NCBI GenBank assembly: GCA_903832665.1
Contig: CAILCG010000001.1
Span: 1 to 64,000, forward strand
Direction: 5' to 3'
DNA from: an uncultured Methanomicrobiales archaeon
GTDB taxonomy: Archaea; Halobacteriota; Methanomicrobia; Methanomicrobiales; Methanospirillaceae
DNA length: 64,000 nucleotides
Below are positions 17,582 to 20,229 of this stretch, piece by piece (the first letter of the stretch is position 1; each line of letters begins with the position of its first letter). Both the position numbers and the translations under genes were made by a program. A model generated the notes under the pieces. It ran no database searches. It saw nothing but the letters and a program-made list of their open reading frames with translations, and was not told the origin of the DNA.

Positions 17582-18874
17582 TCACTTGAACCACGTCTTC
17601 AGCCACTTTGCTTCCATCTGGGACACATCGAGATCCTTGAGCCCGTTGAGTCGCGTATCTTTTAGGACTACCTCACGGATCTTATCCGTGTTGGAATCGA
17701 ACCACATCTCTTTGGTCCTGCCGTACCTGCCGCGGCTCACGACCCGGGTGTTGATCACCCCGAGCATGTTCAACTCGGAGATCAGATCGGTGATCCTGCG
17801 GTGGGTGAGCACATCGAGCTGAATTGTTGGTGCAATATCCTGATAGATACGTGAGACCTCTCCGCTCGTAAAGATATTCTGACCCAGTTTTTCCAGTATC
17901 AGCATGGAGAAGAGTATCAGCTTGCTCTGGGTAGGCAGGGTTGCTATGCATTCAATCATGCTGTCGGTTTCAATTTTTGCCTGCGCCTGCTTGACGTGTG
18001 CCTCGGTAACCTGCGAGGATTCGTCGCGATCGGCAAGTTCTCCCGATATCCTGAAGAGATCAAGTGCCCGCCTTGCATCTCCATGCTCCTGGGCCGCCAG
18101 AGCTGAGCAGAGGGGAATTACACCATCTGCAAGAGCGCCTGCAATGAAGGCCCCGTCAGCACGCTGTGCCAAGATATCCACCAGTTGTGGTGCATTATAG
18201 GGGGGGAATACAATCTCTTCTTCCGAGAGGGAGGAGAGCACCCGGGGATCGAGGAAATCCTTGAAGCTCAGGTCATTTGAGATGCCGATGATGCTCACTT
18301 TTGAATTTTTCAGATCGGAATTGATCCGGGTGAGATTGTAGAGTGTATCATCCCCGCTCTTTTTTACCAGCTTGTCAATTTCATCCAGTACAATGACCAG
18401 GACGCCGCCACTTGCTTCCAGCTGGTTTTTGAGCTCTGCATACACCTGATCGGTGGGCCACCCGGTCATGGGGATATGGGTGCGAGCCTTGTCACTTCCC
18501 TGCTCTTCAGACACATCAAGACTTTTGGCAATCTGGGCAAGGACCCGGTACTGGGTATCGATGACTTCACAGTTGAGGTGGACAAGACGACAGATCATTC
18601 CCATCTTATTACTAGTCCTTTCCAGCTCCGTACCGACATACCGGACACATGCAGTTTTACCGGTACCGGTCTTTCCGTAGATGAGGATATTTGAAGGGGT
18701 CTCATTCCTGAGGGAGGGGGCCAGGATGGATGCAACTTCTTCTATCTGCGGTTTCCTGTGAGGGAGGATCTGGGGACGATAAGAATGCCGGAGCACTTCT
18801 CGATCTTTAAATATCCGGTTGTTGGTGAGATATTTTTTAAATAGTCCCGTTGATGGGTCTTCTGTTTCGGGCAT
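17582..18874 (-). CDS. Orc1/Cdc6 replication initiator
   Basis: A 430-residue AAA+ initiator that binds origin recognition boxes and loads MCM. Walker A is GKTGTGKT (about 68-75), Walker B is IVLDEID (about 160-166), sensor 1 is SIIGISNDLSF, and the last 110 residues form a winged helix (LILFSMLILEKLG...RITDLISELNMLGVI). It sits beside the AT-rich origin candidate at 18.9-19.7 kb, the usual arrangement in archaea. It is the first gene of a leftward group with the Lrp-type regulator and the aminotransferase. Confidence 0.95.
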   Translation of the reverse strand: MPETEDPSTGLFKKYLTNNRIFKDREVLRHSYRPQILPHRKPQIEEVASILAPSLRNETPSNILIYGKTGTGKTACVRYVGTELERTSNKMGMICRLVHLNCEVIDTQYRVLAQIAKSLDVSEEQGSDKARTHIPMTGWPTDQVYAELKNQLEASGGVLVIVLDEIDKLVKKSGDDTLYNLTRINSDLKNSKVSIIGISNDLSFKDFLDPRVLSSLSEEEIVFPPYNAPQLVDILAQRADGAFIAGALADGVIPLCSALAAQEHGDARRALDLFRISGELADRDESSQVTEAHVKQAQAKIETDSMIECIATLPTQSKLILFSMLILEKLGQNIFTSGEVSRIYQDIAPTIQLDVLTHRRITDLISELNMLGVINTRVVSRGRYGRTKEMWFDSNTDKIREVVLKDTRLNGLKDLDVSQMEAKWLKTWFK

Positions 18875-18939
18875 GGTTACACTGTAGTGCAGAGAATTGG
18901 TCGGAATACTCTAAAAAACGATCGGTATCGATGGTTTAT

Positions 18940-18963
18940 AAACCCCATTGCTTCCATTGGAAA
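18940..18963 (-). other. Origin recognition box 1
   Basis: On the minus strand it reads TTCCAATGGAAGCAATGGGG followed by TTT. This matches the archaeal ORB pattern of a TCCAnnGGAAAC dyad followed by a G-string, differing mainly at AAG/AAC and in one base of the G-string. Confidence 0.8.
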
Positions 18964-19126
18964 TCTTGCGATATACTCTTCAAATAACTAAATAAGGCTC
19001 AATTTTGGGATTTGTTTTTTAAGATTTTTTTGATTTTCTTTACACTGTTTTTTTCAAATAATTGTGGATACTCCATGGTTTTCCTTCTTTTTGCATAGAT
19101 TTCGTATTTTTCGACCGAGAGGGGGA

Positions 19127-19149
19127 GACCCCATTGTTTCGTGTGGAAC
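19127..19149 (-). other. Origin recognition box 2
   Basis: On the minus strand it reads GTTCCACACGAAACAATGGG followed by GTC. The dyad half is weaker than in box 1, but the GAAACAA and GGGG parts are kept. It borders the AT-rich core on the left. Confidence 0.7.
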
Positions 19150-19327
19150 TTTTTTTAAAACACCTTATGGTGATATTAAAAAATATAATAAAAACAGCCA
19201 TTTTAGAATTTGAAATTATTAATATATATAATGTTCTAAATTAATCTAAGAAAAAACGTTGAACATCACTTTCATTTTTTCTTCATTAAGAAAAAAAAAG
19301 AGTAAAGGTGAGGAGAATTTTCAGACA

Positions 19328-19353
19328 CTCCACTGGAAATAAAGGGGTGGTCC
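19328..19353 (+). other. Origin recognition box 3
   Basis: On the plus strand it reads TCCACTGGAAATAAAGGGG followed by TGG, a close match to the archaeal ORB consensus with the G-string intact. It points opposite to boxes 1 and 2 across the AT-rich core. Confidence 0.85.
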
Positions 19354-19414
19354 GTGGAATATAAAAAAGTCAATGAAAATTATCAGATTTGAACCATACC
19401 CTATTCTCCAGTCT

Positions 19415-19490
19415 CATGATAATTGTCTCATCGAACCTACCACCCCATCCACTCATTTTACAATCCCATGATAATTTGTATCATTCGAAC
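19415..19490 (+). repeat. Approximate direct repeat in the origin region
   Basis: CATGATAATTGTCTCATCGA at 19415-19434 and CATGATAATTTGTATCATTC at 19467-19486 (both continuing into GAAC) are approximate copies about 50 bases apart. They do not match the ORB pattern, and could be sites for another origin-binding factor. Confidence 0.5.
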
Positions 19491-19740
19491 AAATCACTCA
19501 TTATGCCCTTTCTCTGGTCAGATTAAAAAAATCACGAAATCTCTGCAGAATAACAAAAAATAATGACTGCCTGAAAATCCTTAAAAGAAGATAAAAAAAT
19601 ATCGACTCAACCTTTTTTGTAAAAAATTATCCCCTATATGATTAAAACACCATTCATCAGTTCAGAATTTTTTATGCATCATGTATTTTTTCTTTCCATT
19701 TGAGAATTTTTAATGCTTAATTCAGTGTATAATTACCATT

Positions 19741-20229
19741 ATGAATCAAAATCATATACAGGCAGTTCATGTTTCAGCGGCAATTATCACGGTATCCAGT
19801 ACAAGAACCAAGGAAAATGATACCAGCGGAGCAACAATATCCACGTTACTATCAGCAGCTGACATTCCCATTAGTCACTACGCGATTGTATCTGACCGGG
19901 TCGAGGCCATACGGAATGAACTGTATGTCGCCATGAAAACAGCGAACTGCATTGTGATCAATGGAGGAACCGGTCTCACACCTGATGACTGCACTATCGA
20001 AGCCATCACTCCATTACTGGAAAAGAAGATTGATGGATTTGGTGAGTTTTTCCGGATGAAAAGCCTTCAGGAAATTGGGACATCAGCCATGCTCTCGCGT
20101 GCGATCGCGGGAATTTCCCATGGGAGAGTAATCTTTTGTATTCCCGGATCAACTCCGGCGGTAACACTTGCCACAAAAGAGCTGATCGTCCCGGAGATTG
20201 TACATATCCTGTCCCACGCGAACAGATGA
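19741..20229 (+). CDS. moaB: Molybdenum cofactor protein MoaB/MogA family
   Basis: A 162-residue protein that adenylylates molybdopterin in molybdenum or tungsten cofactor synthesis. VSSTRTKENDTSGATIS, IVINGGTGLTPDDCTIEA (GGTG motif near residue 78) and IFCIPGSTPAVTLA are typical. Formylmethanofuran dehydrogenase of methanogens needs this cofactor. It starts at ATG 19741 directly after the origin region and reads away from it. Confidence 0.9.
   Translation: MNQNHIQAVHVSAAIITVSSTRTKENDTSGATISTLLSAADIPISHYAIVSDRVEAIRNELYVAMKTANCIVINGGTGLTPDDCTIEAITPLLEKKIDGFGEFFRMKSLQEIGTSAMLSRAIAGISHGRVIFCIPGSTPAVTLATKELIVPEIVHILSHANR

Follow-up and report, generated by a model that had tools for sequence, protein, structure and literature searches.

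Does the AT-rich gap upstream of an orc1/cdc6 gene in an uncultured methanogen serve as the chromosomal origin of replication, and if so, what does each of its parts do? The gene lies in a draft genome of 28 contigs (2.88 Mb), and the first 64,000 of the 120,995 bases of contig 1 were analyzed (hereafter, the window). Named relatives of the Orc1 protein belong to Methanoregula and other Methanomicrobiales, with identities of up to 98%. The gap between orc1/cdc6 and a moaB-like gene extends from 18875 to 19740 (866 bp, 69% A+T), which is exactly the interval that a sequence-only reading had proposed as a likely oriC. The features of the locus are as follows.

17582–18874, minus strand: orc1/cdc6 initiator gene, 430 aa (AAA+, Cdc6 lid and Cdc6_C winged helix, by Pfam)
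18875–19740, no strand: intergenic region, very probably oriC, 30.6% G+C compared with 49.4% for the window
18913–18926, no strand: conserved element AAAAAACGATCGGT, in the interval from ORB1 to the start of orc1
18935–18942, minus strand: probable TATA box of orc1, TTTATAAA, adjoining the G-string of ORB1; a putative promoter element
18942–18961, minus strand: origin recognition box ORB1, TCCAATGGAAGCAATGGGGT, oriented toward orc1 at 86 bp from its start and leading directly into the TATA box
19121–19132, no strand: GC dyad GGGGGAGACCCC, which lengthens the G-string of ORB2
19128–19147, minus strand: ORB2, TCCACACGAAACAATGGGGT, reading toward orc1
19149–19248, no strand: probable duplex unwinding element, where a nearest-neighbor stability scan of the window has its 100-bp minimum
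19329–19348, plus strand: ORB3, TCCACTGGAAATAAAGGGGT, in the opposite orientation, fitting the published ORB expression for Methanomicrobia exactly (PMC4164010)
19403–19476, plus strand: pair of 22-nt direct repeats (19403–19424 and 19455–19476), 82% identity over 22 nt, unconserved
19741–20229, plus strand: moaB/mog-like gene (MoCF_biosynth domain match), divergent neighbor

The gene directly downstream of the gap encodes a protein with matches to Cdc6_C (1.2e-27) and Cdc6_lid (1e-26), and its best solved relatives are Sulfolobus Cdc6-1 (2qby_A, 3.7e-104) and Aeropyrum Orc1 (2v1u, 5.1e-101). The wing motif SRGRYG is common to this protein and Aeropyrum Orc1, and reads NRGRYG in Sulfolobus. 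Judged by its sequence, the window's Orc1 is of the ORB-binding initiator type. A second Orc1/Cdc6-like gene is present on contig 24 of the same genome (C24:16008-17066, L002); its product is 27% identical to the first, has a weak Cdc6_C match and a C-terminal end without the SRGRYG wing motif, and is kept in nearly all relatives across the genus.

Three 20-bp ORBs with the clade consensus and a G-string occur in the gap, two of them pointing at orc1 and the third pointing away. The core pattern, CCANNNGAANNNANGGGG, matches three times in the window, always within the gap, where dinucleotide shuffles predict 0.05 matches and none of 100 shuffles of the window reached three. Genome-wide, nine matches were found compared with none for a reversed-pattern control, so the three boxes described upstream of orc1/cdc6 are real. 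They differ in what adjoins them. ORB2 continues into a C-rich stretch (GGGGTCTCCCC), as ORB3 often does in part, and neither has the TATA sequence that is found at ORB1. From these surroundings we infer two kinds of box: a putative promoter type with a TATA box (ORB1) and a putative origin type with GC-rich extensions (ORB2 and ORB3).

The spacing and direction of the boxes are strongly conserved in the orc1 upstream regions of 30 Methanoregula genomes. ORB1 lies 83–94 bp (usually 86) and ORB2 about 246–318 bp (usually ~272) from the start of orc1, both pointing at the gene, and a third box in the opposite direction is present in 27 of the 30. Among the three exceptions, one contig ends early, one record starts inside the origin and carries the missing opposed box at its other end (G010:2542863), and in one the pattern is not matched. 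Among relatives the boxes are kept while the intervening sequence diverges. The C-rich extension of ORB2 is retained in nearly all relatives, and ORB1 runs straight into TTTATAAA in almost all Methanoregula (exceptions or variants are L088, L089, L094 and L098) as well as in several Methanolinea-like, Methanofollis and Methanocalculus loci. Clusters of ORBs upstream of orc1 also occur at most loci of other genera in the order. The element AAAAAACGATCGGT is nearly invariant in Methanoregula, with zero to two extra copies elsewhere per genome and no control matches, and is placed where the start of the orc1 transcript would be expected. In Methanoculleus and relatives (L036, L037, L039, L043 and L044), a second pair of opposed ORBs, ~220 bp apart, is found in addition to the set upstream of orc1; it lies ~1.8 kb beyond orc1 on its 3' side, between aminotransferase and purA genes, and the corresponding part of the window has no boxes.

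Whether measured over 50, 100 or 200 bp, the DNA of lowest stability in the window falls between ORB2 and ORB3, which bears out the proposed inverted arrangement around an AT-rich core: ORB2 (minus) and ORB3 (plus) flank the least stable DNA. The two are probably the origin pair around the unwinding core. The Orc1/Cdc6 encoded next door would bind the three ORBs and, at the opposed ORB2 and ORB3, would open the AT-rich DNA between them; MCM would then be recruited and loaded at the opened core, and two forks would depart in opposite directions.

An origin should also be visible in the strand composition of the chromosome. Since the source genome is a draft with unordered contigs, skew was analyzed in three complete relatives, from each of which 40 even 20-kb stretches were sampled; third-codon skew was averaged across the two gene directions, which removes gene-direction effects. 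With the chromosome divided at the orc1 locus, the two arms have unlike A-T skew at third codon positions (z = -3.7, -3.6 and -3.4; each p ≤0.0002 by permutation). When a two-arm model was fitted with free origin and terminus, the origin fell 22 kb from orc1 in the 2.5-Mb genome, 338 kb away in the 2.8-Mb genome and 92 kb away in the 2.9-Mb genome, with the terminus roughly opposite (R2 0.45–0.53). Taking the fitted distances at face value, the chance of three random points all lying as near to orc1 is about 3 in 10,000; the 338 kb offset in one of the three counts against an origin at orc1. Third-codon G-C skew agrees in sign and is weak (z 1.8, 1.4 and 1.4), while plain GC skew is weak in two relatives and of contrary sign in one (z 1.85, 0.83 and -1.44). 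Within the window, whose 64 kb are too short a span to be decisive, third-codon A-T skew changes across the site in the direction contrary to expectation, and G-C skew in the expected one. The skew switch that had been expected at this place is therefore seen as a third-codon excess of T over A (keto skew) in the three complete relatives, and not in plain GC skew. Plain GC skew, A-T skew and gene-direction bias were set aside as replication markers, being weak or inconsistent in the three relatives; in Methanoregula it is third-codon keto skew, not GC skew, that marks replication.

The identity of the boxes, their arrangement, the core, the type of initiator, the conservation across the order and the whole-genome skew of relatives agree, and there is little doubt in our minds that the gap is the orc1-linked chromosomal oriC of a Methanoregula species. 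The boxes and their arrangement, the conservation, the instability of the core, the initiator type and the strand asymmetry in relatives are observed, and from them we infer that the origin fires. For a widespread and mostly uncultivated genus of wetland methanogens, this amounts to a precise comparative definition of the origin.

Three other explanations were weighed. The best of them, although improbable, is that the locus is one of at least two active origins, another being near the second orc1/cdc6-like gene; in its favor, nearly all relatives have the second Orc-like protein. Against this, no box of the core pattern occurs within 1.5 kb of that gene, which lies 174–669 kb from the fitted origin in the three relatives, and one origin with one terminus accounts for about half of the keto-skew variance in each of them. 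It is very unlikely that the boxes are only operators for the transcription of orc1 (perhaps also of moaB), with replication starting elsewhere: operators would fit with ORB1 being joined to the TATA box of orc1 in nearly every relative, and with the occurrence of TATA-fused ORBs away from the origin, but ORB2 and ORB3 lack a TATA box and lie on either side of the window's least stable DNA, and it is close to this locus that strand asymmetry breaks in the three complete relatives.

The third explanation concerns the extra direct repeats that the sequence-only reading had reported. They exist (19403–19476), as two imperfect copies 52 bp apart, and are no part of the conserved origin. None of 29 other Methanoregula orc1-upstream regions gave a comparable copy (best match 15 of 21 positions, compared with 21 of 21 here), not even that of a genome with 98% identical Orc1, so the repeats are a local feature of the source genome; that they serve the origin as an additional functional element, for example as iterons or as sites for a second factor, is hardly credible, and they were rejected as an origin element and assigned no role.

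With the gap taken as oriC, ORB1 has a further likely role. Because it sits on the TATA box of orc1, Orc1 bound there would most likely limit its own transcription, as judged from position. ORBs joined to a TATA-like sequence also occur elsewhere in the genome. A stricter ORB pattern, TCCANTGGAANNNAAGGGGTA, was searched together with a control pattern in 35 Methanoregula genomes and gave 60 sites in 34 of the 35, with no control matches. Nearly all lie away from orc1 (one exception, G008:C488), and 53 of the 60 run on as GGGGTATA, for which the chance is about 1 in 16. In the source genome, single off-origin ORBs directly followed by a TATA-like sequence are found at C4:60254, C7:19905, C25:5600 and C25:27779 (L115, L116, L118 and L119). 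In both the source genome and a distant congener, one site of the wider class comes after the same DUF362 gene, and two off-origin sites of the source genome have ~115 nt of downstream sequence in common. A relative (G016) carries two off-origin ORB-TATA sites facing the same way, 215 bp apart (C21:14843 and 15058), which suggests a local duplication.

These sites look like candidate Orc1-controlled promoters or titration sites. A Rfam search for structured small RNAs downstream of them returned only tRNAs, located upstream of one site, and none of the downstream sequences folded better than its shuffles. The PhoU-like neighbor of one site was also considered; only a few close relatives have a site facing the same way a short distance downstream. 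Tentatively, and with the odds somewhat against it, Orc1 may control its own promoter through ORB1 together with a few off-origin ORB-TATA promoters (TCCANTGGAANNNAAGGGGTATA), or the latter may titrate Orc1. If so, the initiator itself would provide an archaeal counterpart of DnaA autoregulation and datA, unlike the non-initiator paralog Orc1-2 of Sulfolobus, which is a transcription regulator (PMC9738581). The off-origin sites allow a direct test of transcription regulation by an archaeal initiator.

How new is this origin? The literature search found no paper on a Methanoregula origin. The view that few origins have been mapped in the lineage is correct for experiments, Methanothermobacter being the methanogen named in a review (PMC4010727). 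It does not extend to predictions: Ori-Finder 2 lists a Methanomicrobia ORB expression, TCCA[GC]T[GT]GAAA[CT][AG]A[AT]GGGGT (PMC4164010), and in 2018 DoriC 10 covered 226 archaeal chromosomes, with origins either predicted or proven (PMC6323995). The type of origin, with its family motif in Ori-Finder 2, is thus already known, and the species' own origin is new. New details are the abutment of ORB1 on the orc1 TATA box, which suggests autoregulation, and the GC-rich extensions of ORB2 and ORB3.

Like the Methanomicrobia oriCs of Ori-Finder 2 and DoriC, the gap is intergenic, AT-rich and located beside orc1/cdc6, and its boxes end in GGGGT; by inspection, ORB3 fits the Ori-Finder 2 expression exactly, and ORB1 and ORB2 each depart from it at two positions. 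At the oriC1-cdc6A locus of Haloarcula hispanica, too, an AT-rich core next to the initiator gene is framed by inverted ORBs with G-strings, and extra G-rich inverted repeats lie near the boxes (PMC3936714). In that species the opposed boxes enclose a separate G-rich inverted repeat that functions as an enhancer (PMC3936714), whereas the GC dyad of Methanoregula lengthens the G-string of ORB2, and partly that of ORB3. Haloarcula also provides a precedent for titration, an ORB-rich region that negatively controls oriC2, likely through this means (PMC3936714). The Orc1-1 origins of Sulfolobus and Aeropyrum (2qby, 2v1u), whose initiators are the closest solved, have the same ORB core and G-string; those genera use several origins, while the Methanoregula data fit one.
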